Assembly (NCBI RefSeq): GCF_003464085.1
Contig: NZ_QSDR01000014.1
Span: 52,924-116,923 of the forward strand
Length of the DNA: 64,000 nt
Direction of reading: 5' to 3'
DNA from: Clostridium sp. AM58-1XD
GTDB lineage: Bacteria; Bacillota; Clostridia; Lachnospirales; Lachnospiraceae
Shown one piece after another: positions 9,639 through 31,606 of the stretch. A program made the translations under genes and the position numbers. The first letter of the stretch is position 1. Each line of letters starts with the position of its first letter. Under the pieces are notes generated by a model. That model did no database searches. It was given only the letters and a program-made list of their open reading frames with translations, and was not told where the DNA came from.

Positions 9639-9680
9639 AAAAATAAAGGATGCTGCCTGATCTTACTTCTGCAGCATCCT
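9639..9680 (-). terminator. Terminator of the diguanylate cyclase gene
   Basis: Minus-strand stem AGGATGCTGC / GCAGCATCCT with a 14-base loop, followed by TTTATTTTT. It lies between the stop at 9714 and the jetA start at 9604, so jetABC probably begins from its own promoter or from read-through. Confidence 0.85.
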
Positions 9681-9713
9681 GAGCGCCTTACCATTCTTAT
9701 GTGCAAAACGGGA

Positions 9714-11657
9714 TTATGTCGGCTGTTCATCCTCCGGCACATATTTCTCAAAGCTGCCTTTGGATTTTTTCTTTACCCTGTACATGGCGCTGTCTGCAAA
9801 CCGAATCAGCTCCCTGTATCCTGCCGTAACCTCAGGATAGCAGACGTATCCGCCTGACAACCGCACCTCTACCGTCTTCCCTCCAGGCATGCAGACCTTT
9901 GCATGCATGATATTGTCGTACATACGCTTTATATATTCAAACAGTTCTTCCTGGGAATCGGCGCCGTAAATAACCAGTATAAATTCATCTCCGCTGAGTC
10001 TGGCTGCAATCTTGTTCGGCGCTTCACATCCTTTTAAAAGCTCTGCCGCCTTCTTTAATATCTGATCACCATACTCATGGCCCCAGCCGTCATTTACCGA
10101 TTTCAGATTATCCAAATCGGCCATCAGGATCACCGCTGTTTTCAGCACTTCCGGCTGCCGGAAAAGGCAGTCCATCTTTTTGAAGAACGCCCGCCGCGTA
10201 GTCAAGCCGGTCAGCAGGTCAATGTCCCGCTCCAGTTCAATCTTTTTCTTTTCCAATACGTCTTCCGTCGCATCTACGATAATTCCAAGGGTACTGCGCT
10301 TTTCCTGATAAGATTTTATCTTCAGATAGCGTGGTTTGTCTCCGCCCAGCTGATACACGTCTTTTTCATCTCCCAGCGGACAGGCGACGATACCGCCGAT
10401 CATTTCGGCAAAGGCGTCCCTGTCTGCCAGAACTTTCTGCATATCTTCCTCTGTCATCATCAATATCTCGCCTATTTTACTCGTTGCAAGAACACGCTTC
10501 ATGTCCTGACTGTATTCATAAACGGCCACCGGGATATCCACATTCTGAAAAACAAGAGATAACTTTCCCGTCATCTCCAGCAGGCTCTCTACCATCTGAT
10601 TGATGTTGCTGCCCAGTTCTGCAAATTCCGGCGAACTCGTCTCATTTACCCTTACATCCAGGTCCCCACCGGCGATCTTCTTCATTCCGCCGATAATTCC
10701 GTAAATTCCATGAATAATAAACCGGTCCAGCATCCTCAGAATCAGAAAGATCACTGCGGCCGAAAGCAGACATAGACTGAAAATCACTATCTTCATGTTT
10801 GACGGTATATTTCGATACAGGTTCTCATATGTACTGCTGATACATAACAGGACGTCCCCCGACTGGCGAAACACGCAATAATGCTTGTCTCCTTCGATTT
10901 TCAGTTCCGCGGCAAATCCTTTGTCTCTCTGCTTCTCATCCGGCAGAATAAGTCCCATTCCCGCTACGTTTTTTCCCGTCAGACTATCATCTGTTGAACC
11001 GAGAATCTCTCCTGTCCGCGTATCGGCGGCAAAGGCGGTAATCCCCTTTTCCGCCGTCACCATGGTAAATATATAGGACAGTTCATTCTTCTTCATGGCT
11101 TCCAGAAGCCTGACCGGTTCCATCCCGATCTGGACGATCCCCTGACGATCCTCACGCCAGACGGCAATATACTGCATCAGCTTCCCTTCTGCCGTATTCG
11201 GGGTAATATCCTGGCACAGCTGGAGGGAATAGTCATCGAGCATGGGAAGGAAAAACTGCATTTGTTCCCCTGATCGAAACGTATAGTTGAAATACTTCGG
11301 CTCTGTTCCTGCATAAAGAGTGCCTTTCGTATCGAACAGGTGAAATTCATCCACCTGAAGCAGCGCAGCAATCTTCGACATCTCTTCCTGATCGCCTGTC
11401 ACTTCCGGATGATTCTGCACAATATATGCCGCTGCCTTCGCGCGGATAAAGTAATCCTCTTTCAGATTCTCTTTCAGACGCTCCACATCCTCGCTGTTGT
11501 TATCCAGGACCTGGGATATCTGGCTGATTCTGATCATGGAATTGACATACATGGCCTCTTTTGCCGATTTTATCTGAATATAGCAGCTCAAAAATGCAGT
11601 CACCATCATACTGATTATGATCACGATGCACAATCTGAGCGTAATAGCTTTTTTCAT
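9714..11657 (-). CDS. Membrane diguanylate cyclase (dCACHE-HAMP-GGDEF)
   Basis: Makes cyclic di-GMP in response to an external signal. Start MKKAITLRLC with an AAGGGGAGG site gives 647 residues. A first membrane helix (about 5-25) is followed by an extracellular double-CACHE-type sensor to about residue 290, a second helix (MKIVIFSLCLLSAAVIFLIL), a HAMP segment (IAGGDLDVRV), a PAS-like linker and a C-terminal GGDEF domain. The active-site motif reads RLSGDEF, a common functional variant of GGDEF, after DLLTGLTTRRAFF and VILMADLDNLKSVND. It is a single-gene unit ending in a strong terminator. The ligand cannot be told from the sequence. It is one of four c-di-GMP proteins in this window. Confidence 0.9.
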   Translation of the reverse strand: MKKAITLRLCIVIIISMMVTAFLSCYIQIKSAKEAMYVNSMIRISQISQVLDNNSEDVERLKENLKEDYFIRAKAAAYIVQNHPEVTGDQEEMSKIAALLQVDEFHLFDTKGTLYAGTEPKYFNYTFRSGEQMQFFLPMLDDYSLQLCQDITPNTAEGKLMQYIAVWREDRQGIVQIGMEPVRLLEAMKKNELSYIFTMVTAEKGITAFAADTRTGEILGSTDDSLTGKNVAGMGLILPDEKQRDKGFAAELKIEGDKHYCVFRQSGDVLLCISSTYENLYRNIPSNMKIVIFSLCLLSAAVIFLILRMLDRFIIHGIYGIIGGMKKIAGGDLDVRVNETSSPEFAELGSNINQMVESLLEMTGKLSLVFQNVDIPVAVYEYSQDMKRVLATSKIGEILMMTEEDMQKVLADRDAFAEMIGGIVACPLGDEKDVYQLGGDKPRYLKIKSYQEKRSTLGIIVDATEDVLEKKKIELERDIDLLTGLTTRRAFFKKMDCLFRQPEVLKTAVILMADLDNLKSVNDGWGHEYGDQILKKAAELLKGCEAPNKIAARLSGDEFILVIYGADSQEELFEYIKRMYDNIMHAKVCMPGGKTVEVRLSGGYVCYPEVTAGYRELIRFADSAMYRVKKKSKGSFEKYVPEDEQPT

Positions 11658-11889: not shown

Positions 11890-12537
11890 TTATTTTTCCA
11901 GCAGCTGAATCAGTCTGCTGGTTCCCAGGCGGTCTGCCCCCAGCTCTATGAACCGCTCCGCATCCTCCACCGTGGCAATTCCACCGGCCGCTTTTACTTT
12001 CACCCTGCTTCCAGAATACTTCCTCATCAGCGCAACATCATCAAACGTTGCTCCGCCTGTAGAAAATCCGGTTGAGGTCTTGATATAATCCGCCTTCGAC
12101 TCTGTTACAATTTCACACATCCGAATCTTCTCTTCTTCTGTCAGAAGGCATGTTTCAATAATAACCTTGAGAAGTTTTCCATGGCATGCTTCCTTAATTG
12201 TATTGATCTCTGCCAGAACTCCGGGATAATCGCCTTCCTTCACCATCCCAATATTGATGACCATATCGATTTCATCGGCTCCGTTCGCTACGGCATCCTC
12301 TGTCTCTGCTGCCTTGGCAGCCGTTGTCATATTGCCGTTGGGGAATCCGATTGCGGTGCAGACGGCCAGCCTGTCTTTTACATATTCCTTTGCCCGTTTT
12401 ACGAAACAGGGAGGAATGCATACGGATGCCGTCTGATATTCCATGCCTTCATCGCACAGGGTACGAATCTGGTCCCACGTCGCCGTCTGTTTTAATAGCG
12501 TATGATCCAGTCTCTTTAAAATTTCTCTTTTATCCAT
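11890..12537 (-). CDS. deoC: Deoxyribose-phosphate aldolase
   Basis: Cleaves 2-deoxyribose 5-phosphate to acetaldehyde and glyceraldehyde 3-phosphate, the last step of deoxynucleoside breakdown. The 215 residues match the DeoC family: [12 protein letters not shown] at the N terminus, IGFPNG, the Schiff-base Lys in [22 protein letters not shown] with the proton-relay Lys, and the C-terminal GADRLGTSR. Start codon behind GAGGATAAT. It is the third gene of udp-deoB-deoC, all in the same direction and closely spaced, so it handles the sugar phosphate released by the two genes before it. Confidence 0.95.
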
Positions 12538-12591
12538 TGTATTATCCTCTTTTTGAAATGATCCTGATGATCTCTTTCTCTTATTTTTTGT

Positions 12592-13794
12592 TCATTCCAC
12601 TTCCTGAAGAAGTCGGTCCAGCAGGGAATAGCCGATCGTTCCGTCCGGCATCTTCACGTTAAAATTATCTGCAGCAGTCGCGCCGATCACGGCAAATGTA
12701 TCCGCTTCTCCAAGGCTTCCTCCGTTTTTCATAGAAGGTGACCATGCGAGAAAAGGCACCTGTTCCCTGGTATGGTCCGTACCTGTATAAGTAGGATCAT
12801 TTCCATGATCTGCCGTCAGAATCAGCAGATCGTCCTTATTCAGCACATCCAGCAGCTCTCCCAGTTTTCGGTCGAACCGTTCCAGCTCTTCTCCGTAGCC
12901 TTTTACATTTCTCCTGTGGCCCCACAGGGCATCGAAGTCTACCAGATTGACGAAGCAAAGGCCTCTGAACTCTTTTCCAGCCGTATCGATGGTCTGTTCC
13001 ATACCGTGTACGGAAGAGTTCGAGTGAAGGGATTGCGTCAGTCCTTCTCCGTCAAAGATATCGTGGATCTTGCCAATACCGATTACATCCAGTCCTGCTT
13101 CCTTCAAGGCATCCAGCGCAGTCTTTCCAAAAGGTTTTAATGCGTAATCGTGACGGTTGGACGTACGTTTGAACTCACCCTTTTTCTTTCCAATATAAGG
13201 ACGCGCAATGACCCGTCCCACCTTCCACTCGTCTTTCATGGTCAGTTCCCTGGCTATCTCACAGTAATGGTACAGCTGATCGAGTCCCATCGTTTCCTCG
13301 TTACCGCAGATCTGGAGTACGGAATCAGCAGATGTATAAACAATCAGATGGCCTTCCCTGATTTCCTCTTCTCCAAGTTCGTCCAGTATGGCTGTTCCGC
13401 TGGCACTTTTATTGCCGATAATCGTCCGGCCTGTCTTTTCCGAAAGAGCTTCTATAAGCTCTTTCGGAAATCCGTGTTCCGTAAACGTTTTAAAAGGCTT
13501 CGTCACTTTCAGTCCCATCATCTCCCAGTGGCCCGTCATGGTATCCTTTCCCAGACTGGCCTCATGCAGAACCATATACCGCCCAAGCGGATCCGCTTCC
13601 GGTGCAATTCCTGCAAGAGGGCGGAGATTAGCGATTCCAAGACGCTTTAAATTTGGAATCTTCAGATTTCCCGCAGCCTCAGCAATATGGCCAAGGGTAT
13701 CCACGCCTACGTCTCCGTACCGGGCCGAATCTTTTTCTGCTCCAATTCCGAGAGAATCCAGAACAATTACAAATATCCGGCTATATCCTGCCAT
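12592..13794 (-). CDS. deoB: Phosphopentomutase
   Basis: Interconverts ribose or deoxyribose 1-phosphate and 5-phosphate. An alkaline-phosphatase-fold metal enzyme: [15 protein letters not shown] carries the N-terminal metal Asp, [11 protein letters not shown] the catalytic Thr, and [21 protein letters not shown] the second metal cluster. About 400 residues, the usual length. The ATG at 13794 is preferred; a GTG nine bases upstream is too close to the GGGAGA ribosome site. The start lies inside the end of udp (13-base overlap), so expression is coupled. Product feeds DeoC. Confidence 0.95.
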
Positions 13795-14578
13795 TCGCTC
13801 CACTCTCCCGTTCTTCCTTAATCAGGCTTCTGATTGCCTCCACCGCAACCGTTATGGCTGCCTCCGTATCGTGTACGATCGGATTGTCCAAACCGGCTTT
13901 ATCACGTTCCTGATTACCTACGACCAGGAAATCAGAACCGCAGCGCACGCCCAGATAGCTTGCTACAATAAACAGCGCGGCAGATTCCATCTCTGATGCC
14001 TTGCAGCCAAGGCGCAGCCATGCCTTCCACTTATCCGTCAGCTCATACCCTACCGGCTTTGACTCCGGGTCATGCTGGCCGTAAAAGGAATCCTTACACT
14101 GCACCACACCTGTATGATAAGTATAGTTCAGCTTTTTAGCTGCTGCCGCAAGAGCATTGGTCACATTTAGATCGGCAACGGCCGGAAATTCTATCGGCGC
14201 ATATTCCTTGCTCGTTCCTTCCATGCGTACCGCCCCTGTGGCTACCACAATATCGCCGCCCTTAACATCCATATCCATACCTCCGCATGTTCCGACGCGG
14301 ATAAATGTATCGGCACCGCAGTTAACCAGCTCTTCCATTGCGATGGAAGCCGACGGCCCTCCGATTCCAGTGGACGTAACGCTTACTTTTTCTCCGTCCA
14401 GATATCCTGTATATGTTACATATTCCCGGTTGTCGGCAACCAGCACCGGATTATCAAAATGCTGGGCAATCTTGACGCAGCGTTTCGGATCACCCGGCAT
14501 GATTACATACCGCCCTACATCCCCTTTTCTAATCTGTAAATGGTATTGCAGCCCTTCTTCTCCTGAATAATTCTGCAT
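13781..14578 (-). CDS. udp: Uridine phosphorylase-type nucleoside phosphorylase
   Basis: Phosphorolysis of a pyrimidine nucleoside to base and (deoxy)ribose 1-phosphate. The NP-I family fold shows in VMPGDPKRC (phosphate site), [23 protein letters not shown] and the nucleoside-binding [14 protein letters not shown]. An insertion with FYGQHDPE and QERD is typical of uridine phosphorylase rather than purine enzymes. ATG at 14578 follows AAGGAGGT by 8 bases; 265 residues. It leads the udp-deoB-deoC operon, which converts nucleosides to central metabolites. Substrate class is inferred from motifs; a broad-specificity phosphorylase cannot be excluded. Confidence 0.88.
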
Positions 14579-14612
14579 AGCATAATACCTCCTTCTTCTC
14601 TTTGAATCAATC

Positions 14613-14745
14613 TGCTCTGCAGTCATTATACCATATCCGCTACGCGGATACGGCGCCTCCGGCGGAATTTAGCGCCCGGTTTTCTGCGGTGTACGCAGAA
14701 ACCGGGATGCGCTGGTATAATGCCTGCTCTGCAGTCATTATACCA
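14613..14745. repeat. Twin-hairpin intergenic repeat, one full and one partial copy
   Basis: A roughly 75-base unit (14672-14745) holds two hairpins: TTTCTGCG / CGCAGAAA and GGTATAATG / CATTATACC. A partial copy of its right end (TCTGCAGTCATTATACCAT) lies at 14615-14633. A second full copy occurs at 56739-56819 in another intergenic gap. The unit has no coding frame. It resembles small palindromic intergenic repeats; its family is not recognised. Confidence 0.75.
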
Positions 14746-18686: not shown

Positions 18687-20080
18687 TTAAAGGCCAAATC
18701 CAAAATAACGGTTTACATTGCGCCAGCAGATATCCTGTATCATGCTTCCTGCAAACGGAATATCTTTAGGGTATTCTCCCCTGTCAATCCATTCTCCAAC
18801 CGTATCACAGAGTATCCTTCTGAAGTAATCGTGGCGTGAATAGTTGACGTATGCACGTGAATCGGTCAGCGTTCCGATAAAATTCCCCAATACGCTCAGA
18901 CTCGCCAGCGAAGTCAGGTGATTCCTGATTCCATTCAGGTTGTCACTGAACCACCAGGCCGCTCCGTGCTGTATCTTTCCGACGGTACCCGCCTCCTGGA
19001 AACACCCTATCATGGAATCCAGGACCGGATTGTCGGCCGGGTTGATGGAGTATAGGATCATCTTTGGAAGGCAGCATGCCTCATTGAGCGCATCCATGAA
19101 TTGCGGCAGCATGCTCAGATTGCCGAAACTGCCGATACAGTCGCCTCCCACATCCACGCCCACCGTGCGAAGCAGATAGCTGTTGTTATCCCTCTTTGCT
19201 CCCACGTGAAGCTGCATTACCCAATCGCGTTCTTTGCATGCTGATGCTATTTCAAACAGCAGGCCGCACAGGTAAATATCTTCTTCCTGTTTTGTCGGAA
19301 TGCCGCCTGCCAGGGCCTTTTTCAAAATCCTGTCAATCTCTTCCCTGGTAAATGGTGTACATGGTACATCCATCAGCGCCTGATCGATGCTGCGGCATCC
19401 TCTTTTTGCGAAATCATCCATTCTGATACGGATAGCCTTTGCAAGACCGGCAAAATCCGTTATGGCGCAGCCGGCCACATCCGACAGTTTTCCCAGATAT
19501 TCAGAGAATCCGGGAAGACCGATGTTGACTACGGAATCCGTTCGGAACGTCGGCACCACCGTTACGTCAAAGGACGGATCCGACCGGATCGTATCGTGCG
19601 CTTTCAGCGGGTCCAGGATATCGTCGGTACTGCCGATCAGCTTCACGTGAGCTTTTTTAATCAATTCCCGGACAGGCATATCTGCAAGGCCCTGTTGCAG
19701 ACCTCCCAGGCCTCCTGAGCTGTTTCGGGACTTAATGTCTTATCAAACCCAAATACGTCTTTCAGCTCCATATGGGAACGGTGATATAATGGATTGCCGA
19801 TACACTTCGGAAGAACCTCTGCCCATGCGAGAAATTTTTCTTTGTCGCTGCCCTCTGCAGTGATGTATTTTTCTTCTATTCCACAGCTGCGCATCGCCGT
19901 CCATTTATAGTGATCCAGAGAAATCCACGCCTGGGTGATATTATCATAATGCAGGTTTTCGGCGATTTCACCAGCGTTCACATGACAGTGGTAATCGATC
20001 ACCGGCATCTGTTTCGCATAGCCGCGGTATAGCTCCTGGGCAGTTTTTCCCCTTAGTAAAAAATTGTCATTGATATACAT
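18687..20080 (-). CDS. uxaC: Uronate isomerase (single-base frameshift near 19685)
   Basis: Isomerises glucuronate to fructuronate or galacturonate to tagaturonate. An amidohydrolase-fold enzyme with VIDYHCHVNAGEIAENL (metal HxH) at residues 28-44 and SFDVTVVPTFRTDSV, AKRDNNSYLLRTVG and SSLNGIR-type loops further on. The frame breaks near 19685: one part ends CNRALQICLSGN and the other begins MPVRELIKKAHVKLIGSTDD. With one G restored it reads CNRALADMPVREL and is exactly 464 residues, normal for UxaC. It is the last gene of the island that starts at the BMP lipoprotein, and ends at a strong terminator. No uxuA, uxuB or kdg genes follow, so the usual uronate route is not complete here. Confidence 0.88.
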
Positions 20081-20112: not shown

Positions 20113-22026
20113 TTACTGACTTTCATGTGTCTCAGCTTTCATGCTGCGGATAAATGCCTGTATCTGCTCTACGTCATCCTCCATCTCCAGCAGTACACTT
20201 CCAATATAAACTCCGTCGGCCTGCGCTTCCCGTATCATGCGGACGTCTTCAGGAGTATATACACCTACGCCGCAGTAAATTTCCTGCAGAATACCCCTTT
20301 GACGCAGGTATGCCACACAGTCTGACAACGCTTCATATCCTGGACGTACATTATTGTTATATGTAGGCTTGGCCTGCAGATAGACCAGGCCGTTTGTCTG
20401 TTTTGCCGTTTCGATCTCTTCCTCCGGCATGTGATATCTCACAAAGGCCGCCAGGCGGATTCCCCCTTCCAAAAGCTTGTCCTGGAAGTCTGGCCGTTCA
20501 GAGCCTACGTAGATCATTGCGTCGATACCAGCCTTCTTACAGAACGCCACTACCTTGTCGATACCGATCCGCTCCATCGTATTTTCATACAGGGCCAACT
20601 GGACTGCAACCCGGGGATATTTATTTCGAATCTCCTGTATCGCTTCAAAATATTTGTCATAATCGTGACAATTTTCAAAGGCAGCCGCCATATGGCGGGC
20701 AATTACGTCACTCTCGAAGTAAGGATCCGGGGAAGGAATATCCAATTCCAACGTATCTGCTCCTGCTTCTATGTATTTATCCACCATCTCCAGGCTTTTT
20801 TCCATTGTGGGATAGCCGAGAGAAGAATAGCACACCAGCTTTAACTTTTTCTCCGGAGCCTGATAATCACTGCCCAGAAATGCCTGGCGGAACAACTCTT
20901 CAAATTGTTCTGCCGAAGGCACCAGCGGGTTTGTTCTCGTACAGCCGTCCAGCAGCGCCTCCCTGCTCATCTGAGGAATCATCTGAAGATATTGTTCCCT
21001 GTCATCAATGATTTCCTTCAGGCAGGATGGAATATCCAGTTTGATCTGGAGCTCCGATACAATTTCCTCCAGACTTTCCCCTCCCATGTCTCTGGCCAGC
21101 ACCTCATACCGTTCCTTTGCCTGGGGATTCCTGCAGTTAAACCGAATGACATATGGTAGTATCACAGCATCTCCCAGTCCATGGGAAATCCCGAAGCGGC
21201 TGCCGATTACGTGGGCCATGGAGTGGACAATTCCCAGGGATGAGTTGGTGAAAGCCAGCCCCGCTGCGGTAGACGCATCCAGCATCATTTCCCGCGCCTT
21301 CATATCAGCACCGTCACGATAAGCGACGGGAAGCCATTCCACAATATCGAGAGCCGCCTGCCGGGCCAGCGTATCGGAGATGTAATTCGGGCGTCTGGAT
21401 ACCCAGGACTCAATGGCGTGTGTCAGGGCATCCATGCCTGTTTCCGCTGTCAGATGCTTTGGCATGCTGGCAGTCACCGCCGGATCACAGATGGCCACAT
21501 CCGGCATCATCTCCATATCTCCGATTCCACATTTATTATGGCTGATATCGTCCGTAATCACGATGGAACGGCTTACTTCACTGGCAGAACCGCTGGTAGA
21601 AGGTATGCACACAAACTTCGCCTTTTTTCGCAGCGGCGGGATGGTATTCGGTGGTTTCAGCTGATCCAACGTGGTGATTTCGGAATGCTCGTACAGCACC
21701 CACATGCTCTTTGCCGCGTCCATCACGGAACCGCCTCCAATTGCGATAATCCAGTCAGGGCCGTAATCTCTCATAACTTTTGCTCCGGCCTTGACCGTAG
21801 AAAACGTCGGGTCCGGCTCCACCCCCTTAAAGACCGTGGATTCCATTCCGGCCTGGGAAAGGTATTCCTGGGCCTGGGAAACAATTCCGGCCCGTTCCAT
21901 ACTGCCTCCGCCGATTACAATAAAAGCTCGCTTTCCTCTCAGAGTAGCCAGATGATTCAGGCATCCTGTACCAAGCATCAGTTGTTCCCCACCCAATTTC
22001 AGAGGCTTTGTTTTCATAGGTCTCAT
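20113..22026 (-). CDS. Fused iron alcohol dehydrogenase and TrpA-like TIM-barrel protein
   Basis: A two-domain enzyme of 637 residues. Residues 1 to about 375 are a group III iron-dependent alcohol dehydrogenase: IGGGSVMDAAKS (NAD site), CIPSTSGSASEV, and metal ligands in GMDALTHAIE, SMAHVIGSRFGISHGLGDA. From about 390 the chain becomes a TIM barrel like tryptophan synthase alpha: GYPTMEKSLEMVDKYIEAGA, TLELDIPSPDPYFES (the TrpA catalytic Glu is kept; its Asp is replaced by Glu), then GIDAMIYVG and GVGVYTPEDVRMI. No trpB or other trp gene is near. I prefer ATG 22026; an ATG at 22071 would overlap the upstream gene. A pathway joining alcohol oxidation or ketone reduction to an aldol cleavage is a reasonable inference; the real substrate is unknown. 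Confidence 0.85.
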   Translation of the reverse strand: MRPMKTKPLKLGGEQLMLGTGCLNHLATLRGKRAFIVIGGGSMERAGIVSQAQEYLSQAGMESTVFKGVEPDPTFSTVKAGAKVMRDYGPDWIIAIGGGSVMDAAKSMWVLYEHSEITTLDQLKPPNTIPPLRKKAKFVCIPSTSGSASEVSRSIVITDDISHNKCGIGDMEMMPDVAICDPAVTASMPKHLTAETGMDALTHAIESWVSRRPNYISDTLARQAALDIVEWLPVAYRDGADMKAREMMLDASTAAGLAFTNSSLGIVHSMAHVIGSRFGISHGLGDAVILPYVIRFNCRNPQAKERYEVLARDMGGESLEEIVSELQIKLDIPSCLKEIIDDREQYLQMIPQMSREALLDGCTRTNPLVPSAEQFEELFRQAFLGSDYQAPEKKLKLVCYSSLGYPTMEKSLEMVDKYIEAGADTLELDIPSPDPYFESDVIARHMAAAFENCHDYDKYFEAIQEIRNKYPRVAVQLALYENTMERIGIDKVVAFCKKAGIDAMIYVGSERPDFQDKLLEGGIRLAAFVRYHMPEEEIETAKQTNGLVYLQAKPTYNNNVRPGYEALSDCVAYLRQRGILQEIYCGVGVYTPEDVRMIREAQADGVYIGSVLLEMEDDVEQIQAFIRSMKAETHESQ

Positions 22027-22048
22027 ATTCTGTTCACTCTCCCACTTA

Positions 22049-22627
22049 TCAATTTTTGCTGCATCCTTCATCTAATTCCATAAACAGTTCTTCTCTTGTC
22101 AGTACGCGGCCCAGATAGCGGCGGATATCCTCCAGGTTTATCCGTCCTGCTTCCTCACAGTCCGTAGCCACACAGTCTTCTGCCACAATCACATGATAGT
22201 CCAGATTATGGGCGTCGGTTGCCGTAGCCCGTACGCAGCAGTTTGTCTTCACCCCGCAAAGGATCACGTTCTGTATTCCGTTTTCTCTGAGCACGAGGTC
22301 AAAATCCGTGCCGAAAAAGGCGGAGTATCTGCGTTTTCGGATAACATAATCCTCTGGAAGGACCTCCAGATCCGGGTGAATCTCTTCCCCGCCGGTCTTC
22401 TCCACACAGCATTTGCGCATTTCATTTAAGTTGCGATCAGGTTTTCCCTCCCGGTAGCAGTGCTGGATAAAAACTATTTTCATTCCGCGCCTGCGGCAGC
22501 CGTCCAAGAGCGATTTTACATTCGGCACAATATCCCGGCTGCTCTCTGCATAGGCACATCCGCCCTCGCAGGTAAAATCATAGAGCATGTCTATAATAAC
22601 CAGTGCCGATTTCTTAACGTCAATCAT
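22049..22627 (-). CDS. Isochorismatase-family cysteine hydrolase
   Basis: Hydrolase of 192 residues with the full catalytic set: Asp in ALVIIDMLYDF, a Lys in YVIRKRRYSAFFGTDF, and Cys in LCGVKTNCCVRATATDA. The family includes nicotinamidases, carbamoylsarcosine and ureidoacrylate amidohydrolases and true isochorismatases. The start overlaps the permease end by 8 bases, and its stop is 23 bases before the fused ADH/TrpA gene, so it belongs to the transporter operon. It probably hydrolyses an amide in the transported compound or an intermediate. Nothing in the sequence selects the exact substrate. Confidence 0.85.
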   Translation of the reverse strand: MIDVKKSALVIIDMLYDFTCEGGCAYAESSRDIVPNVKSLLDGCRRRGMKIVFIQHCYREGKPDRNLNEMRKCCVEKTGGEEIHPDLEVLPEDYVIRKRRYSAFFGTDFDLVLRENGIQNVILCGVKTNCCVRATATDAHNLDYHVIVAEDCVATDCEEAGRINLEDIRRYLGRVLTREELFMELDEGCSKN

Positions 22628-23546
22628 TCATATACCCCCTTATCTGGTTATTTCTGTTGTCAATCAGGGCGGTAGCAAACATGGCAATCAGGATAAACAC
22701 GTACGGCAGCATCTCAATCAGGGAAGCGGTTGCTGAGTCCACTACCGTCGTAAGCTTGATCTGCAGGGCGCGGGCCAGACCGAAGATCAGGGTAAACAGG
22801 CTGGCTTTGATCGGGTTGCCCTTTCCGCATCGAGCTGCGGACAGCGCGATATAACCGCGGCCTGCTACCATTCCCAGCGTGTACATGCCAAGGCTCTCTA
22901 CCGACAGATTGGCTCCTGCCAGACCGGCCAGGGCGGAGGATATGAGGATTGCAAAGTAGCGTATTCCTTTCACCTTGATTCCCACCGCTTTTGCAGCCTC
23001 TTCATTTTCTCCTACCAGCCGTACATAGACGCCGATCTTTGTCTTATACATCAACATCCAGATAATAAAGATCAGAAGGAAGGAACAGTAGGTCAGGATT
23101 GTCTGATTATTCAGGACTTCGTTAATTATGGGGATGCTGCGCAGGACAGGAACGTCCAGCCGGAAATCCGTCGTATGGATCACTTCCGTGGCAATCAGGG
23201 AAGTCCTGTTGCTGTACATCGTCTGAAGCAAAAACGGAACAATACTGATGGACAGCAGGTTCACAGCCAGTCCGGTGATAATCCTGTTTCCTTCCAATGT
23301 GATGCTGAAAATGGAAAAGATGAGACCCAGTACCATGGCGCACACCACTCCCATGACGATACCAAATAACACATTGCCGGTGATAAACGAAAAATATATG
23401 GAAGCAAATGCCCCGATATTCATCATACCGTCCATCGCTATGTTCAGCACCCCGGCCTTGTGGGGAAAGATCCCTCCCAGAACACAGATCACAAGCGGCG
23501 TAGACATGGCTATGCCGATATTCATCATATTCAAAAGTTCATTCAT
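22620..23546 (-). CDS. BMP-type ABC transporter permease 2
   Basis: Membrane permease of 308 residues with about nine hydrophobic segments, of the branched-chain/ribose-type permease family (BPD_transp_2). Features such as KAGVLNIAMDGMMNIGAFAS and LAGLAGANLSVESLGMYTLGM match the second permease of nucleoside-type (YufQ/NupQ-like) uptake systems. The ATG overlaps the stop of permease 1 by 4 bases (ATGA). It works as a heteromer with the gene at 23543-24649, energised by the ATPase at 24646-26240. Confidence 0.9.
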   Translation of the reverse strand: MNELLNMMNIGIAMSTPLVICVLGGIFPHKAGVLNIAMDGMMNIGAFASIYFSFITGNVLFGIVMGVVCAMVLGLIFSIFSITLEGNRIITGLAVNLLSISIVPFLLQTMYSNRTSLIATEVIHTTDFRLDVPVLRSIPIINEVLNNQTILTYCSFLLIFIIWMLMYKTKIGVYVRLVGENEEAAKAVGIKVKGIRYFAILISSALAGLAGANLSVESLGMYTLGMVAGRGYIALSAARCGKGNPIKASLFTLIFGLARALQIKLTTVVDSATASLIEMLPYVFILIAMFATALIDNRNNQIRGYMND

Positions 23547-24649
23547 AGTTTCTCCTCCTTAGCGGAAGATACGGCTGCCTGTCCGTTTCTCTTTCCCGGA
23601 AACAGCGAGGACAGGGTTTTTCCCGCCCAGGGATTCTTCTTCACAAAGTCCACTGCCAGGAAGAGAATCAGAAGGCTCTGGATAACCGTGATAATATCAT
23701 AGGGAACGCCTACATAACTCTGAAGTGTCGTACTTCCGTATTTCAGCGCCCCGAAGAAGATTGCAGCCACAAAGACGCCGACCGGATTGTTTGCGCCCAT
23801 CAGCGCTACCAGCATGCCGTCCCAACCCAAACCAGGATTCGAGGAAAAGGTGGGGGTAAAACGGCGGTGTACCCCAAGCATTTCCGTAGCGCCGGCCAAA
23901 CCGGCTACGGCCCCGCTGATCACCATGATAATCATGATTTTCCTGCGGACATTCATCCCGGCGGCATCGGCAAAACCGATGTTTTTTCCAATTGTATCCA
24001 CCTCATATCCCAGCTTTGTTTTGTTATAGATAAACCAGAACACAGGGACGCAGGCGACTGCAAACAGAATTGCTGCGGAGAGTGTGGTACTTGGCGTCAA
24101 CCGGGGCAGCATGGCACTGGAAGCCACCTTGGCAGTAGCCGTATATCCGATATTCTGCTTGAATGGACCGCTGGTCAGATATTCTGTAAATATCGTTGCC
24201 ACATAGTTCAGCATCAGGGTAACCACAATCTCATTGATATGGAAAACTGCCTTGAATACACCCGCCACACTTGCAAACAGCGCGCCTGCTGCCATAGCCA
24301 GCAGGATGCAAAGGGGCAGATGAACTGCCATTGGAAGATTCGTAAAGGTAAACCCCGCCCAGGTGGCTACAAAAGCGCCTATGTACATCTGTCCTTCCAC
24401 GCCCATATTGATAATCTGAGCTTTAAAGGTAATCGCTACGGCCAGACCCGTCATAATCAGCGGACTGGCATAACAGAGCGTTCCCATCAGCCCGTCTTTT
24501 GTAAAAAGTGACTGGCTGATTAAACACCGGTATGTCTCCAGAGGACTGTGGCCGGCAGCCAATATCAGAATTGCCCCTGTTCCAAATGCCAGCAATATGG
24601 GCAGAAAAACATTGATGAGGGAGCCTGCCAGTTTCGATCGTTTTTTCAT
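23543..24649 (-). CDS. BMP-type ABC transporter permease 1
   Basis: Membrane permease of 368 residues, similar in family to its neighbour but longer, like YufP/NupP. Motifs include TFKAQIINMGVEGQMYIGAF and GWDGMLVALMGANNPVGV, the latter typical of nucleoside-type permeases. Good AGGAGGGAGG site; ATGA overlap with the ATPase stop. The C terminus is a short charged tail. Confidence 0.9.
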   Translation of the reverse strand: MKKRSKLAGSLINVFLPILLAFGTGAILILAAGHSPLETYRCLISQSLFTKDGLMGTLCYASPLIMTGLAVAITFKAQIINMGVEGQMYIGAFVATWAGFTFTNLPMAVHLPLCILLAMAAGALFASVAGVFKAVFHINEIVVTLMLNYVATIFTEYLTSGPFKQNIGYTATAKVASSAMLPRLTPSTTLSAAILFAVACVPVFWFIYNKTKLGYEVDTIGKNIGFADAAGMNVRRKIMIIMVISGAVAGLAGATEMLGVHRRFTPTFSSNPGLGWDGMLVALMGANNPVGVFVAAIFFGALKYGSTTLQSYVGVPYDIITVIQSLLILFLAVDFVKKNPWAGKTLSSLFPGKRNGQAAVSSAKEEKL

Positions 24650-26240
24650 CCAGTTTTTCCTCCCTCCTCATCTGATTTTACACCCATCATGTAAAGCCCG
24701 AGTTCTTCCTGGGTCGTCTCAGAAGCTTTAAAGTGACCGGTAATCCTGCCCCGGAACATGACAACGATCCGGTCCGACAGGCCAAGAATCTCCGAAAGCT
24801 CTGAAGAGATCAGCAGAACTGCCTTTCCCTCATCCCGCAGATCAATCAGTTTCTGATGAATAAATTCAATGGAGCCTACGTCCACCCCGCGTGTGGGGCG
24901 CGATACAATAAGCGCTCTCGGATCGGAGGAAAATTCCCGTGCAACCACAACTTTCTGGGCATTTCCTCCCGACAGTCCGTCCACATCCGTATTCCAGCCG
25001 TCGTTATCATCTCCGGATGTACGGATATCATAGGATTCGATCAGCTGCGCTGCATTTTTTCTCATCTGTTTATAGCTCAGAATCCCGAACCGGCATACAG
25101 GTTCATGGACGTGATAACCAGCCGTCAGGTTTTTGGCAACATTCATCCCCCTGCAAAGGCCCAGGCGGAACCGGTCCTCCGGCACGATAGCCACACCGCT
25201 GTCCCGAAGCTGTCTGGGATAGAAATTTGTAATATCTTTCTCACCGAGGGATACGCGCCCTCCGGATGTTTTCATCATCCCCGTAAGAGCCATGGTCAGC
25301 TCATACTGCCCGTTTCCCTCCACACCGGCGACTCCCAGAATTTCACCTTCCCGGATAGCCAGAGAAATATCATGGAGCACCGTTTCCCCGTGGGAACCTT
25401 TCACACAGAGATGCTTCACTTCATACGCAACGGGTACACCTTCATAATTATGCTCACTTTTCTCCACATTCAGCTTTACTTCCCTGCCTACCATAAGAGC
25501 CGCCAGTTCATCTTCGCTGAACTGAGTGGTACTGTATTCTCCTACCAGCTTGCCTCTGCGCAGAATCGCACAGTGTTCGGACAGGCTTTTCACCTCTCTC
25601 AGCTTGTGAGTGATGATGATAATGGTTTTTCCGTTGTCTCTTAAATTTTTCAGAATCTGTATCAGCTCATCTACCTCCTGAGGCGTCAGCACCGCTGTGG
25701 GCTCGTCCAAGATCAGAATGTCCACATCCCTGAGAAGCATCTTCAGGATCTCTACCCTCTGCTGCAGCCCGATCGAAATATCTTTCACTCTGGCTGCAGG
25801 GTCCAGGTCAAAGTGATATTTTTCGATCAACTCTTTTACCCGCTTCTTCTCCTCCCGATTGTCTATGAAAGGCAGTTTGATCGTCTTACCCACCGTTTTG
25901 GAAAGCTCTGTGCCCAAAAATATATTTTCATAGATCGTCAGGCTGGGAGCCAGTTTAAAGTGCTGATGCACCATGCCGATGCTGTTTTCGATGGCGTCCT
26001 TGGGAGACTCATTCTGACCTGTCTGGAATTGATCCAAATCTCCCCCCGGGTTGGGGAAAGCAGCCCGTAAAGCATATTCATTAACGTTGATTTTCCGGCG
26101 CCGTTTTCCCCGATAATACACAATATCTCGCCTCGTTTCACCTTCAGGCTGACCTCTCTGACTGCGGTAAAATCCCCAAAGCATTTCGTCAGCCCTCTGG
26201 TTTCGATAATATAGTCCCCCTGTACCGGACTTTCGCTCAT
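24646..26240 (-). CDS. ABC transporter ATPase, double NBD (single-base frameshift near 26003)
   Basis: Energises the BMP-type uptake system. Two fused nucleotide-binding domains, as in RbsA/YufO: the first has Walker A GENGAGKST, signature DISIGLQQRVEI and Walker B DILILDEPTAVL; the second has the degenerate P-loop GVEGNGQYE and signature LSGGNAQKV. One base is missing in a run of C near 26003: one frame ends ...RQVRMSLPRTPS and the other carries SPKDAIENSIGMVHQHF. Restoring it gives exactly 531 residues. Start at ATG 26240 after AGGAGGGCGG. The Q-loop MVHQHF lies just after the break. Confidence 0.9.
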
Positions 26241-26282
26241 AAACCGCCCTCCTGTCAATTCACCCGGCTTCTCTCATTTGTT

Positions 26283-27410
26283 TCAGGCTCCCGGTGTAAA
26301 GACTTCTCCCATGGATCCGTCCACTACATTGATCTTGCCGGAGATAATGTCCTTCCGTGCCTGTTCTACTTCCTGTTTGATCTCATCCCATTTCGCCTCA
26401 TCGGTAATATATGGGGCAATGACGCTGTAATCGGTCAGATCTGCGCCTCCCTCTTCCAGAGTCATGACCACAGTTCCCTTTTCCAGTTCTCCGTTCAGCA
26501 GCTGATCTGCCAGTTTATACAAAGCCGTATCCATTCGTTTCACGGCGCTGGTTACGATAAATCCCGGCTCCTTGGCATCCATGTCATCGGTTGCCCCCAA
26601 AGCCAGCACGTTGCATTCCTTTACCCCCTGGAATACGCCCAATGCTGCCAGGCCCGCCGCTACAAATATTACATCGGCATTCTGGCTCTGAATCTGGTTG
26701 ATGGCAACTGCCTTCGAATTCTGTGTGTCGGAAAAGCCAACCGTAAAGTCCGTAATGATCTGGATATCAGGATTCACACTGTATGCCCCCTGATAGAAGG
26801 CCTCATAAAACACCTTAAAGCCCGGGCTGTCGGTAGCGCTGATAAATCCAACCGTATTGCCCGCCTTCATCTGGCGGTCACCGATAATTGTGACATCCGG
26901 TTTTGTCAGTTCTCCTGCAATAATTCCCGCCAGATAAGAGGCATCCTGGATGTCAAACATGATAGAGATGACATTCGGCTTATCCACAATCAGATTGAAT
27001 ACGACAAATGTCACATCCGGGAATTCGTCTGCCACCATCTCTACCGCATCTGCATGGCTGTACTCCAGCGTTACCACCAGCCCGTACCCTTCCTGGGCAA
27101 ACTGGCGCAGGTACGTCTCTCCCTGGGATACTTCCGCCGGTTCTACAATAGTATATTCCAGCCCCAGTTCCTCTGCAGCCTGATCCAGCCCCCGTTTCGA
27201 GGCATCGTTGTAACCATTGTCTCCCAAACCGCCGGATGAACAGATCACCGCCATCTTCTTTGCATTATCTCCGGCCGCTTTGTCTCCGACTGCGCCTGCT
27301 GCAGAGGATGACTGAACTTCGGAACTGCTGCCGGCCGCTTTCTTTCCACAACCTGCAAGCACTGAAAACACCATGGATACGCAAAGCAGAATCGATATTA
27401 TTTTTCTCAT
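26283..27410 (-). CDS. BMP-family substrate-binding lipoprotein
   Basis: Extracellular binding protein of 375 residues for the ABC importer. Signal peptide MRKIISILLCVSMVFSVLAG ends in lipobox AGC. The mature protein shows the Med/BMP family fold: ICSSGGLGDNGYNDASKRG, YSHADAVEMVADEFPD, QDASYLAGIIAGELTK and FISATDSPGFKVFYEAFYQG. BMP proteins bind purine or pyrimidine nucleosides, or in some cases other small ligands. Good AGGAGGAAAT site. First gene of a co-directional run: BMP, ATPase, two permeases, cysteine hydrolase, fused ADH/TrpA, uxaC. Confidence 0.9.
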   Translation of the reverse strand: MRKIISILLCVSMVFSVLAGCGKKAAGSSSEVQSSSAAGAVGDKAAGDNAKKMAVICSSGGLGDNGYNDASKRGLDQAAEELGLEYTIVEPAEVSQGETYLRQFAQEGYGLVVTLEYSHADAVEMVADEFPDVTFVVFNLIVDKPNVISIMFDIQDASYLAGIIAGELTKPDVTIIGDRQMKAGNTVGFISATDSPGFKVFYEAFYQGAYSVNPDIQIITDFTVGFSDTQNSKAVAINQIQSQNADVIFVAAGLAALGVFQGVKECNVLALGATDDMDAKEPGFIVTSAVKRMDTALYKLADQLLNGELEKGTVVMTLEEGGADLTDYSVIAPYITDEAKWDEIKQEVEQARKDIISGKINVVDGSMGEVFTPGA

Positions 27411-27564: not shown

Positions 27565-27987
27565 TCATGCCAAGTGAAATGTCATGGCGGCCGCTTCATA
27601 CTCATTTGTAAGCCAGGCTTCCAAAATATCCAGCAGTTCAAAAATCCCCTGTGTCTTTCCTCCCAGGCAGAGTACGTTTGAGTTATTATGGCGTCTCGTC
27701 ATCATCGCCATATAATGGCTTGTACACAAAGACGCCCTGACGCCCTTGAACTTATTAGCCACCATGCTCATGCCGATTCCGGTCGAACAGATCAAAATCC
27801 CTCCGTCTGCCGCCTTTGTAGCGACAGCTCTGGCCACCATAGCCGCATAATAAGGATATCGGACGATTTCAGAAGAATCTGTGCCTACATCCTTTACCTC
27901 ATAACCTTGTCTTTGAAGATATTCCCGAATCTGTTCTTTTGCCTCGTATCCCCCATGATCACATCCTATCCAAATTGTGTGGAACAC
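27565..27987 (-). CDS. rpiB: RpiB/LacAB-type sugar-phosphate isomerase
   Basis: Aldose-ketose isomerase such as ribose-5-phosphate isomerase B, allose- or galactose-6-phosphate isomerase. A GTG start at 27987 after AAAGGAGGGGG gives 140 residues, near the family's 145-150. It shows IGCDHGGYEAKEQI, VGTDSSEIVRYPYYA, GGILICSTGIGMSMVANKFKG with the catalytic Cys, and RRHNNSNVL. The upstream in-frame ATG at 28098 would add an unrelated tail. It lies between the regulator and the BMP gene and may supply isomerisation for the compound taken up. Confidence 0.85.
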   Translation of the reverse strand: MFHTIWIGCDHGGYEAKEQIREYLQRQGYEVKDVGTDSSEIVRYPYYAAMVARAVATKAADGGILICSTGIGMSMVANKFKGVRASLCTSHYMAMMTRRHNNSNVLCLGGKTQGIFELLDILEAWLTNEYEAAAMTFHLA

Positions 27988-28098
27988 ACAGCCCCCTCCT
28001 TTTTCACCAGTTTGTACAACAACACCGTCAATTAACTTGTCTTTTATGTTATAATTATACAATTTCAATCCACTCAATTGATATAGTATACAAACCAA

Positions 28099-28315: not shown

Positions 28316-29434
28316 TCAATAGTGCTGTCCGGAATCAAAAAGAATCGCAATATAAAGTTTCAGTGCATCACAAGTATTCCTTGGATCATAGCCGGTCTGT
28401 TCCTTTATTTTGTTGAGTTTATACTGAAGCGTATTTTTGTGTATGTACAGCATCTCTGCTGTTTTGCCTATGGAACCGCTCTGTGTGAAAAATGTGCGCA
28501 GCAGTACCTTCCACTCATCCACATCACTTTTTTTGCAGTTGGCAAACACCTTGCTGACAAAATCCGTCTTTATCTGAGCCGGTATTTCCTCCACCAGCAG
28601 ATCGATGGAAAGCTCTTCATACCGCATAACCGCTGTTCCTCTGGATTTGAATGAAATCGTGCAGGCTTTTTCCGCCTTTTCATAGCTCTCATGGACGTCC
28701 CTGTAATCGCAGCTGGCCGGTCCGATTCCTCCCGATACACTGACGGAAAAGCTGCTCTCCAGGATATTTTTCAAGGTGGCAAGAGCCCTCTGAACCGCCA
28801 CGGCGCTTTCTGTTCCAAACAGAAAAATCACCTTGGACTCCACCATAATCTCTCCGATCAGCGTTGCCATATGGGTGGTATGCTGTGACACCGACTGGCC
28901 GATTTTATGCATCATTTCCTCATCCAGAGGGCGTTCGTCAGGAGAAAGTACCTGCAGTACCCCCACCACATACCGGCCGGAAATATCAAGGCCTGCAATC
29001 ATCGCGCACGTTTCAAAGGTATTATCCTCTGAAACAAAATCATTAAAAATCCACTGTTTAATCAGGTCTCTTCTGTTGATTGCATGCAGTCTTTCCTGCT
29101 GTTCCAGCAAACTGGTCCTGATCAGCAGTTCTGCCAGCCGCTTCGCCATAAAAAGCTGATCCTGCCGCTCTTTCTGCAGCCCTTCTACAATTAATACGCC
29201 CACCGGTTTGTCCCCCACGGTCAGCATGGACACCCCGTCCGGGCCGTCAACAGCAGCAGACAGTTCCGCCCCTGCGGCATATCGGCTCAAAAGCCCGGCC
29301 GCACCGCCGTGGATGTCCCCCGGTCCGTCCTTCGTTAAAATCCGTCCATCCATATCCGCGACGCAGACAGGAAGATGCAGCATTTCGTAAAGTTCCTCAA
29401 TGATTCTTTGTGTCGTATCCCAAGATAGTATCAT
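28316..29434 (-). CDS. CdaR/PucR-type transcriptional regulator
   Basis: Probable activator of 372 residues. The N-terminal part (about 1-130) resembles the sugar-diacid-recognition domain: MLHLPVCVADMDGRIL and GDKPVGVLIVEG. The middle has a GGDEF-like fold as in CdaR (FSVSVSGGIGPASCDYRDVHESY). The C terminus carries the PucR helix-turn-helix GSIGKTAEMLYIHKNTLQYKLNKI. ATG at 29434 follows GGGAGGG. It is transcribed divergently from the UbiD gene with 180 bases between, so it probably senses the substrate of this island and controls both sides. Confidence 0.85.
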   Translation of the reverse strand: MILSWDTTQRIIEELYEMLHLPVCVADMDGRILTKDGPGDIHGGAAGLLSRYAAGAELSAAVDGPDGVSMLTVGDKPVGVLIVEGLQKERQDQLFMAKRLAELLIRTSLLEQQERLHAINRRDLIKQWIFNDFVSEDNTFETCAMIAGLDISGRYVVGVLQVLSPDERPLDEEMMHKIGQSVSQHTTHMATLIGEIMVESKVIFLFGTESAVAVQRALATLKNILESSFSVSVSGGIGPASCDYRDVHESYEKAEKACTISFKSRGTAVMRYEELSIDLLVEEIPAQIKTDFVSKVFANCKKSDVDEWKVLLRTFFTQSGSIGKTAEMLYIHKNTLQYKLNKIKEQTGYDPRNTCDALKLYIAILFDSGQHY

Positions 29435-29548
29435 GTTATCCCTCCCGCCGGTTTTGTCATGTTTTGTCAAGATGGACTGTCAGGCTTTTGTCCGATTAAC
29501 CAAAAGCGTCCCGGCTATCTTTGTGTGCAAATACATATTCATATCGAT

Positions 29549-29616: not shown

Positions 29617-30996
29617 ATGTATTCCCAAAAAGTAGATTTACAAAACTGTATTTCGCTGCTTGAGCAGCATCAACAGGTAATTCGCGTAAAAAGTGAAGTG
29701 AACCCAGTCCATGAACTCAGCGGAATTGCCAAAAAACTGGAAGGCGGACCCGTAATTGTGTTTGAACATGTGAAAGGCAGCTGTTTCCCTGTTGTGACAG
29801 GACTGTACGGCAACCGTGACAATCTGGCTCTGATCTTTGGCTGCACGGCAGCCGATCTGCCCTTTTACTTGGACCGTGCAGTCCAGGAATGGCTCAGGAA
29901 TCCGGTAGAACCCGTCATAGTCGACCATGCGCCTTCCCAGGAAGTCATACAAGAAAAACCCAATCTGTATGAAATTCCCACCCCGACTATTTCACTGGAA
30001 GACGGCGGCCCTTATTATGCCAGCAGTTTGGTAATTGCGAAAGATCCCGATACCGGCGTGCGCAATGCCTCCGTCCATCGCATTATGGTAACCGGAAAAG
30101 ACCGTCTCACCATGCTGTTAGGCACTGGAGGACATTTGAAAGATTATTTTGAGCGGGCGGAAAAACAGGGCAAGTCTGTGGAAATTACAATCAATAACGG
30201 CGTGGACCCCCTTGCTTTTTTCGCTTCTATTATTCCAAGCACCTCCGTTCCCATCGACAGAGATGAACTGGGGATCGTCTCTTCCCTGCTGGGACATCCC
30301 ATGGAACTTTGCAGAAGCAAAACGGTCTCTGTTGAAGGAATTGCCAATGCCCAGGTCATAATTGAAGGTGAAATACTGCCGGGTGTCCGGGAACCGGAAG
30401 GTCCTTTCGGGGAAGTGACCGGGTATTACGGAACCCGTGCGGACCGCTGGGCTGTCCGGGTGAAAGCAATCACCCGCCGCCGGGAGCCGATCATCTCCGC
30501 TCTTCTGCCCAGTAAAGAGTCTTATGTAGCCTTAGGTGTTCCAATGGAAGCAGGTCTTTACCGCATGGTTTCCAATGCAGTAACAGGAGTTAAGGCGGTC
30601 CGCATGCACGACGGAGGGTGCGGTACCTATCATGCTGTCATTCAGATGGAACCGGCACGGGCCGGGATGGGGAAAGTCGCCATATGCGCTGCCTTTGCTG
30701 CATCACCTTCCATTCAGATGGTAACTGTGGTTAATGAAGATGTGGATTTATCCAGCGCAGAGGATCTCATGTGGGCCATGTCCACCCGTTTTTCCCCTGA
30801 CGAAGACACGGTCCTGATTCCCAATATGAGTTCTCAGACAATTAATCCCATAAGCGCCAATGGATGCAGCGCCAAAATTGGATTTGACTGCACGGTTCCC
30901 GTACCCAGGACCGACCGATTCAAGCGGGCCGCCTATCAGGAAGTAGACCTGTCTCAATACGACATCGTATATCCCGGATATAAAATGGGACGGTAA
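29617..30996 (+). CDS. UbiD-family (de)carboxylase
   Basis: Prenylated-FMN-dependent decarboxylase of 459 residues. It has the UbiD hallmarks: an Arg in NASVHRIMV, the paired acids in IEGEILPGVREPEGPFGE, and GYYGTRADRW. Start after AAGAGGAGG. The family acts on aromatic or alpha,beta-unsaturated acids; in gut anaerobes substrates are mostly unknown. The cofactor needs UbiX, which lies tail-to-tail on the other strand 19 bases away. Co-regulation with the divergent transporter island is likely but inferred. It is not a ubiquinone gene here; no quinone pathway is present in the window. Confidence 0.9.
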   Translation: MYSQKVDLQNCISLLEQHQQVIRVKSEVNPVHELSGIAKKLEGGPVIVFEHVKGSCFPVVTGLYGNRDNLALIFGCTAADLPFYLDRAVQEWLRNPVEPVIVDHAPSQEVIQEKPNLYEIPTPTISLEDGGPYYASSLVIAKDPDTGVRNASVHRIMVTGKDRLTMLLGTGGHLKDYFERAEKQGKSVEITINNGVDPLAFFASIIPSTSVPIDRDELGIVSSLLGHPMELCRSKTVSVEGIANAQVIIEGEILPGVREPEGPFGEVTGYYGTRADRWAVRVKAITRRREPIISALLPSKESYVALGVPMEAGLYRMVSNAVTGVKAVRMHDGGCGTYHAVIQMEPARAGMGKVAICAAFAASPSIQMVTVVNEDVDLSSAEDLMWAMSTRFSPDEDTVLIPNMSSQTINPISANGCSAKIGFDCTVPVPRTDRFKRAAYQEVDLSQYDIVYPGYKMGR

Positions 30997-31015
30997 AAGA
31001 GGAACCGGGCCAATC

Positions 31016-31606
31016 TCAGATATGTTCCTGTTCCAGTCTGGATGACCACTGTCTCTTTTCCTGAACTGCTATGTCCAAAAATCCAAGAGCATGGGCACAG
31101 GTCTGGAGCACCAGCTCTTCGATCCCCTCAGGCCTTGTGTAAAATGCCGGCATAGGGGGCAGGATAATGGCGCCTGCTCTGGCAAGGCGCAGCATATTTT
31201 CCAGATGGATCGCTGAAAGAGGAGTCTCCCGCGCCATAAGGACTAGCGGTCTGCGTTCTTTCAGGCAGACATCCGCCGCCCGAAGGAGCAGGTTATCCGT
31301 ATATCCTCCGGCGATCCCGGCCACCGTCTTCATGCTGCAGGGAGCAATCACCATACCCCTGCATGGAAAAGAGCCGCTTGCTACAGGAGCTGCCATGTTG
31401 TCATTGGCGTAACAGAAGTCCGCCAGCCGGCAAACCTGTTCCGGCGTATCATCCGTTTCCTCCAGAATGGTACGCCCGGCCCACTCTGACATCACAAGAT
31501 GCACCCGTATATCAGGTTCCTTCTTCAGTAATTTCAGCAGCTGGATTCCGTAAAGGCTTCCGGTTGCGCCGCTCATCCCAATAATAATATCTTTTGTTCG
31601 ATCCAT
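31016..31606 (-). CDS. ubiX: UbiX-type flavin prenyltransferase
   Basis: Makes prenylated FMN, the cofactor of UbiD enzymes. A 196-residue flavoprotein with IGMSGATGSLYG, VASGSFPCRGMVIAPCSMKTVA, and VLMARETPLSAIHL, the family motifs for FMN and prenyl phosphate binding. Its C terminus is slightly extended (QEKRQWSSRLEQEHI). It is convergent with the UbiD gene rather than in one operon, which is less common than co-directional pairs; the functional link is nevertheless clear. Confidence 0.92.
   Translation of the reverse strand: MDRTKDIIIGMSGATGSLYGIQLLKLLKKEPDIRVHLVMSEWAGRTILEETDDTPEQVCRLADFCYANDNMAAPVASGSFPCRGMVIAPCSMKTVAGIAGGYTDNLLLRAADVCLKERRPLVLMARETPLSAIHLENMLRLARAGAIILPPMPAFYTRPEGIEELVLQTCAHALGFLDIAVQEKRQWSSRLEQEHI

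Follow-up and report, generated by a model that had tools for sequence, protein, structure and literature searches.

A single frame joins an iron-dependent alcohol dehydrogenase to a TrpA-like barrel

The window (the whole 64,000-nucleotide stretch of Clostridium sp. AM58-1XD DNA that was analyzed) carries an importer, an isochorismatase-family hydrolase and, directly after the hydrolase gene, a fused enzyme, and this set is flanked by rpiB and by uxaC, the latter adjoining the fusion (Table 1). The minus-strand frame at 20113-22071 is open for 652 codons, with a longer alternative start at 22071. The start at 22026 is preceded by GGGAG and gives a 637-residue protein identical to database protein P0001. 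When the 652-residue frame was compared with Pfam, Fe-ADH scored 155.1 bits, ADH_Fe_C 145.8 bits and Trp_syntA 99.1 bits (cut-off 27; residues 407-644 of this frame). In the barrel, E427, D429 and E438 occupy the positions of E49, G51 and D60 of TrpA, and G588, G609 and S610 those of the phosphate site. The TrpA fold, the Pfam family and the catalytic acid pair (E427, E438) were all present, and no other barrel family was found among the 50 matches listed. A sequence-only reading of this DNA had described one open frame holding a complete Fe-ADH and a TrpA-type domain, and had named a match of the second domain to a different TIM-barrel family as the point to check. Both the frame, with matching coordinates, its 637 residues, two Pfam domains and metal ligands, and the domain assignment stood. 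In the hydrolase, the D13, K98 and C131 positions are conserved throughout (51/51).

Table 1. Coordinates of the fusion gene, its parts and the neighboring genes in the window.
Feature	Position	Strand	Basis
Fusion gene, Fe-ADH + TrpA-like, 637 aa + stop	20113..22026	-	ORF, Pfam; P0002 has the same architecture
Fe-ADH domain, residues 1-385	20872..22026	-	GGGS 97-100; ligands D199, H203, H268, H282
Linker, residues 386-394, without extra domain	20845..20871	-	Constant DGCT-YSSLGYP spacing
TrpA-like barrel, residues 395-637 + stop	20113..20844	-	Pfam, alignment, fold
Isochorismatase-family cysteine hydrolase of the operon	22049..22627	-	PF00857, 162.6 bits; D13, K98, C131 present
BMP-type ABC importer, permease 2	22620..23546	-	tblastn to operon permeases, 40-45% identity
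BMP-type ABC importer, permease 1	23543..24649	-	ORF; tblastn
BMP-type ABC importer, ATPase, frame-broken near 26005	24646..26258	-	Two overlapping frames match one ATPase
BMP-family substrate-binding lipoprotein, unusually divergent	26283..27410	-	tblastn, 29-33% identity
uxaC (glucuronate isomerase family), frame-broken near 19670	18687..20080	-	Two PF02614 pieces
rpiB-family isomerase, upstream of importer	27565..28098	-	TIGR01120, 171.1 bits (cut-off 138.65)

The fusion is genuine and rare

Because neighboring genes are frame-broken, an independent copy was required to establish the fusion. P0002 (630 aa), encoded on a different contig, shows the same two-domain order, which the sequence-only reading had proposed to look for in protein databases; 464 of its 630 residues are identical to the window protein (73.7%, one gap), with 72.5% identity over the ADH part and 76.6% over the TrpA-like part. 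P0003 (276 aa) begins within the ADH C-terminus and continues in frame into the barrel, and is therefore probably part of a third fusion. P0001, P0002 and P0003 share a distance of 40 residues from DGCT in the ADH to YSSLGYP in the barrel. An assembly error that removed the stop codon between two adjacent genes would be in keeping with the broken frames nearby (the ABC ATPase, uxaC, probably jetC and a gntR-type gene) and with the adjacency of Fe-ADH and TrpA-like genes elsewhere, but the copy in P0002, the in-frame passage in P0003 and the constant spacing in all three leave this explanation hardly credible, and it was rejected. As P0002 has the same fusion, a sequencing slip does not account for it, and the joining of both domains in one frame is confirmed.

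In a quick tree that contains some long branches, P0001, P0002 and P0003 grouped together (SH-aLRT 94), and their sister was the standalone TrpA-like protein P0004 (247 aa, 54% identical; SH-aLRT 99). This grouping is consistent with one fusion event. Searches covering about 5.8 billion proteins yielded two clusters with the fusion, and the one probable fragment besides. With search words taken from the TrpA-like part, two fused clusters were recovered at E ≤0.001 among 1076 candidates. The ADH part gave 824 matches, and of the 120 that were listed only P0001 and P0002 exceeded 500 aa. Genomes were also sampled at three levels, 397 at family level (12 positive), 29 at genus level (3 positive) and 391 at class level (10 positive), and their matches included no fused relative; these tallies include genomes of the 18-genome operon set described below, and the matching open frames reached at most 278 aa. 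Both domains shared a frame in none of 167 long frames from 128 loci. Viral carriage was also examined, with no relative confirmed in viral contigs and no near DNA match in phage records.

The TrpA-like domain is distinct from tryptophan synthase alpha

Residue counts were taken from an alignment of 116 TrpA-like and 12 canonical TrpA rows. The E49 position is Glu in 111/113 TrpA-like rows and the D60 position is acidic in all 114 (Glu in 94, Asp in 20). The Gly213, Gly234 and Ser235 positions, which belong to the phosphate site in TrpA numbering, are kept in 116, 116 and 114 of the 116 rows. The sequence-only reading was right that the catalytic Glu is retained (E427) and the Asp exchanged for Glu (E438), but the exchange is not the telling feature it was taken for: Glu stands at the D60 position in 9/12 canonical TrpAs of related genomes, so the change is ordinary in this lineage.

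Other positions separate the two groups. The Gly51 position is Asp in 109/113 TrpA-like rows, the Cys of an IYCGVG motif is found in 111/116, and an Asp of 12/12 canonical rows, presumably D130, is replaced by Gly in 115/115. The Thr, Gly and Arg of loop 6 are each present in 12/12 canonical TrpAs; in the TrpA-like family, whose alignment is gappy there, they were counted in 29, 70 and 1 of 116 rows, and the window has Asn, Asn and Val. The numbering of TrpA residues and the roles of its loops follow PMC12930369 in part. Against TIGR00262, the TrpA equivalog, the fusion scored 91.7 bits for the whole protein and 94.4 for the domain, below the cut-off of 102.35, and in the quick tree 80 TrpA-like rows were split from the 12 canonical rows by a branch with SH-aLRT 100.

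The genomes gave the same separation. Among 18 operon genomes, 12 also encode a canonical TrpA (278-311 bits), each adjoining trpB. The operon copy reaches 72-109 bits and lies next to trpB in 0/18. The remaining six (G001, G013, G014, G015, G017 and G018), in which the TrpA-like gene is the only PF00290 match over the cut-off, comprise four without a trpB match (E 1e-30) and two with a lone trpB. In the window, tblastn with two TrpB proteins gave a best E of 1.2, in agreement with the earlier statement that no trpB lies nearby. It could still be argued that the domain is a divergent but working indole-3-glycerol phosphate lyase, as it has the TrpA fold and acid pair and databases label its relatives tryptophan synthase subunit alpha; the missed curated cut-off, the unconserved loop-6 motif, the separate canonical TrpA in 12/18 genomes and the lack of any trpB in 4/18 make this highly improbable, and canonical TrpA was rejected. 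The TrpA-like domain is thus not tryptophan synthase alpha. It shares the fold, E49, an acid at D60 and Gly213/Gly234-Ser235 with TrpA (PF00290) and with standalone indole-3-glycerol phosphate lyases such as BX1, whereas the family differs from them in the unconserved loop-6 motif, the change of Gly51 to Asp, the missing trpB partner, its place in an uptake and nucleoside-type operon and, in one clade, the fusion to an Fe-ADH. Genes labeled trpA need not encode TrpA: since six of 18 genomes hold only the TrpA-like copy, four of these without trpB, tryptophan-synthesis calls from trpA alone would be wrong there.

A Schiff-base aldolase acting through a strand-6 lysine was also considered. The fused sequences keep this lysine, and the idea was weakened by 15 of 116 rows that have another residue (Val in 10, Arg in 2, and Thr, Asn and Ala in one each).

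The unfused gene belongs to a conserved operon

One genome per species was scanned with the family alignment, giving 73 loci; a single-protein query confirmed 0/11 stretches. At all 73 species loci the TrpA-like gene is unfused, with no frame containing both domains. The usual gene order is GntR, BMP, ATPase, two permeases, isochorismatase, PfkB, phosphorylase, BtpA, Fe-ADH and TrpA-like. Some loci end with a glyoxalase-family gene after the TrpA-like gene, and GntR is sometimes downstream. In the 62 loci with at least 9.8 kb of upstream sequence, tblastn detected GntR in 58, BMP in 60, the ATPase in 62, the permeases in 61 and 61, isochorismatase in 60, PfkB in 60, the phosphorylase in 61, BtpA in 60 and the ADH in 62; counts by clustering are lower, and tblastn may over-count generic families such as GntR and the ATPase. 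Over all 73 loci the same method gave the ADH in 72, BtpA in 70, the phosphorylase in 69 and PfkB in 66, and the single locus without an Fe-ADH starts at a contig edge. Fe-ADH lies directly upstream (<250 bases) of the TrpA-like gene in 69/72, often only a few bases away. Moreover, in a sample of 391 class-level genomes an operon-type BtpA (242-447 bits) and the TrpA-like gene occur in exactly the same 10; three others carry distant BtpA proteins (111-168 bits). The operon is found in Bacillota, Actinomycetota, Chloroflexota and Mycoplasmatota, and in a single genome of Spirochaetota. On one Mycoplasmatota contig (L062), a second phosphorylase and a second set of BMP, ATPase and permease directly follow the TrpA-like gene.

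The operon phosphorylase is a relative of uridine phosphorylase, with 164 bits against a cut-off of 280.3. The best solved match of the PfkB kinase was MJ0406 (108.4 bits), which we take to be a nucleoside kinase; the kinase scored 60.6 with the haloarchaeal ribose-1-phosphate kinase model (cut-off 330), lower than with IolC (101.3) and ribokinase (81.5). No phosphatase gene is among the conserved operon genes. No description of the operon with its TrpA-like gene was found in the literature searched, which covered few subscription papers and no bioRxiv preprints. The larger point, beyond the fusion itself, is this conserved operon with a TrpA-derived enzyme.

The ADH half derives from the operon-type dehydrogenase

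The ADH half of the window protein was compared with the Fe-ADHs of nine genomes, and its best match was the operon ADH in 9/9 (448-485 bits, 54-58% identity), any other Fe-ADH in those genomes scoring at most 319 bits. In five of the nine a second ADH paralogue (292-319 bits) was seen, in neighborhoods without operon genes as judged from ORF starts; these surroundings offered no clue to its role. In the window, the importer, the isochorismatase and the Fe-ADH all adjoin the TrpA-like domain, which places it with the operon family. Given the adjacency of Fe-ADH and TrpA-like genes and the operon-type ADH half, the fusion joins genes that are neighbors elsewhere; it is an end-to-end join of the two genes that usually close the core of the operon.

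The Fe-ADH domains, the GGGS motif and the one Asp and three His ligands place this half in group III, with the AdhE C-domain, FucO and ErcA. The metal ligands are kept in 62/62 aligned operon Fe-ADHs. The best named families by score were the AdhE C-part (334 bits), ErcA (266) and FucO (250), families which mostly reduce small aldehydes. Unlike the named members, the fused enzyme stays under every listed NCBIfam cut-off (best PRK13805, 334.3 against 951) and carries a TrpA-like barrel at its C-terminus; since no cut-off was reached, the ADH substrate is not readable from the sequence.

A retro-aldol route is proposed for the operon

The two fused activities are best read as consecutive enzymes of a nucleoside-type catabolic route. 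Together, the BMP importer, the phosphorylase and the PfkB kinase point to a nucleoside-like compound with a sugar that becomes phosphorylated. Because the acid pair and much of the phosphate site are intact, a retro-aldolase is the simplest reading of the barrel, and the second half of the protein probably cuts a sugar-like molecule. In the route we propose, the imported compound would be converted to a phosphorylated sugar, the TrpA acid pair and phosphate pocket would cleave a carbon-carbon bond of this sugar phosphate by retro-aldol reaction, and the Fe-ADH would reduce the resulting short aldehyde and so restore NAD+. Through the fusion, the reactive aldehyde would be kept close to the activity that consumes it. 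That the barrel is such a retro-aldolase and the fused Fe-ADH its aldehyde reductase is a substantial possibility, which we put forward tentatively. The fusion marks out two consecutive enzymes of the conserved operon, so that the pathway becomes testable with one purified protein.

The sequence-only reading had likewise coupled the ADH step to carbon-carbon bond breakage. The coupling is plausible, but neither the Asp-to-Glu change nor the link with uxaC that accompanied it proved telling. It could also run in the reverse of our order: the ADH would act first and turn a hydroxyl into a ketone, and the beta-hydroxyketone would then be cleaved by the TrpA-like half. TrpA needs the indole ring of its substrate as an electron sink (PMC12930369), and a sugar substrate would therefore need a carbonyl instead. 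Such a carbonyl could be made by an alcohol dehydrogenase, and a single chain for both steps suits either order. Nevertheless, the closest named Fe-ADH families, AdhE, ErcA and FucO, are mostly aldehyde reducers, and we regard oxidation before cleavage as quite unlikely.

The TrpA-like protein might alternatively be a sugar-phosphate isomerase or epimerase, with BtpA or another enzyme making the cut and the ADH acting independently. Many barrels of this superfamily are isomerases, and the Asp at the Gly51 position (109/113) and the Cys of IYCGVG (111/116) are conserved additions of the family. A fold search with BtpA returned general phosphate-binding barrels only (TM about 0.5-0.6 to the query), and its model was about equally like HisF, TrpA, ribulose-phosphate epimerase and PRAI. 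However, the family retains the acid pair of TrpA and its Gly, Gly-Ser phosphate site, and a partner of the aldehyde/alcohol dehydrogenase family in 72/73 loci is a better fit to the release of an aldehyde, so we consider an isomerase or epimerase unlikely. Cleavage by the barrel followed by aldehyde reduction remains our preferred reading.

This scheme resembles a route in haloarchaea. According to PMC9700705, guanosine phosphorylase, ribose-1-phosphate (R1P) kinase, R15P isomerase, RuBP phosphatase, Ru1P aldolase and glycolaldehyde reductase act there, yielding DHAP and ethylene glycol from nucleosides. The haloarchaeal non-carboxylating pentose bisphosphate pathway applies a phosphorylase, a PfkB-type kinase, an aldolase and an aldehyde reductase serially to nucleosides, as proposed for the operon proteins; unlike the operon, it has its own aldolase, a FucA, a phosphatase and a characterized isomerase (PMC9700705). 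Its glycolaldehyde reductase is only a distant relative of the operon ADH (21.6 bits with the reductase model, cut-off 550), and the pathway serves as an analogue only. Aldolase-dehydrogenase couples of the DmpFG type and AdhE also hold aldehyde-making and aldehyde-using activities together. These have other folds and partners, and for the fusion the hand-over of the aldehyde is a proposal. A wider version of the scheme is possible but doubtful: a nucleoside route in several phyla, in which a repurposed TrpA would split a phosphorylated pentose to give a triose phosphate plus a two-carbon aldehyde and the Fe-ADH would reduce the latter, the window clade having fused both steps, which would channel the aldehyde, and perhaps having taken up a new substrate.

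A possible change of substrate in the fused clade

No PfkB or BtpA match (tblastn, E 1e-3) and no operon-type phosphorylase was found in the window, where the sole phosphorylase is a canonical uridine phosphorylase (13781-14626; 325 bits, cut-off 280.3). In view of these three absences, the substrate in the window may differ, and a phosphorylated substrate may arrive by another route. The enzyme of the window clade might thus have moved out of nucleoside breakdown to, for example, a uronate- or pentose-derived compound supplied through uxaC and rpiB, which flank the set. Two further observations point the same way. The window BMP protein has a median identity of 31.1% to the others, against 48.6% for locus pairs at the same ADH identity, a divergence that is suggestive only, since 10% of 399 such pairs are equally low. 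In addition, of 62 columns with at least 90% conservation across 112 other rows, 16 are altered in at least one of the three fused sequences and 13 in all three. On the other side, the neighbors in the window include uridine phosphorylase, phosphopentomutase-type and DeoC-family genes, which leaves room for a nucleoside role, and the absent genes may sit elsewhere in the genome. We consider such a shift quite conceivable without leaning towards it; it is compatible with retro-aldol chemistry, and the fused clade may serve another substrate. The sequence-only reading had looked to constant neighbors, BMP transporters and uxaC, as the mark of a conserved catabolic enzyme. For uxaC this expectation failed: uxaC or rpiB was found at 0/73 related loci, so a conserved link of either with the TrpA-like gene was rejected, and they are not members of the conserved operon.

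Several other features of the window were recorded. Genes for uridine phosphorylase, a phosphopentomutase-type metalloenzyme and a DeoC-family aldolase lie in a row at 11890-14626, as in the classical nucleoside route, and an adenosine deaminase family gene is found at 38827-39837. A PucR-type regulator (28316-29470) precedes a UbiD-type decarboxylase (plus strand) and a UbiX-like flavoprotein (minus strand) at 29617-31606, near the operon. Four genes are each split over two frames, namely a gntR-type gene (3346-3995), probably jetC (4102-7460; pieces of 740 and 385 aa), uxaC and the BMP ATPase, reflecting either indel errors of the assembly or decay. A Wadjet-type set at 4102-9751 comprises JetA (PF18982, 363 bits), a DUF4194 protein and pieces of an SMC-like ATPase.
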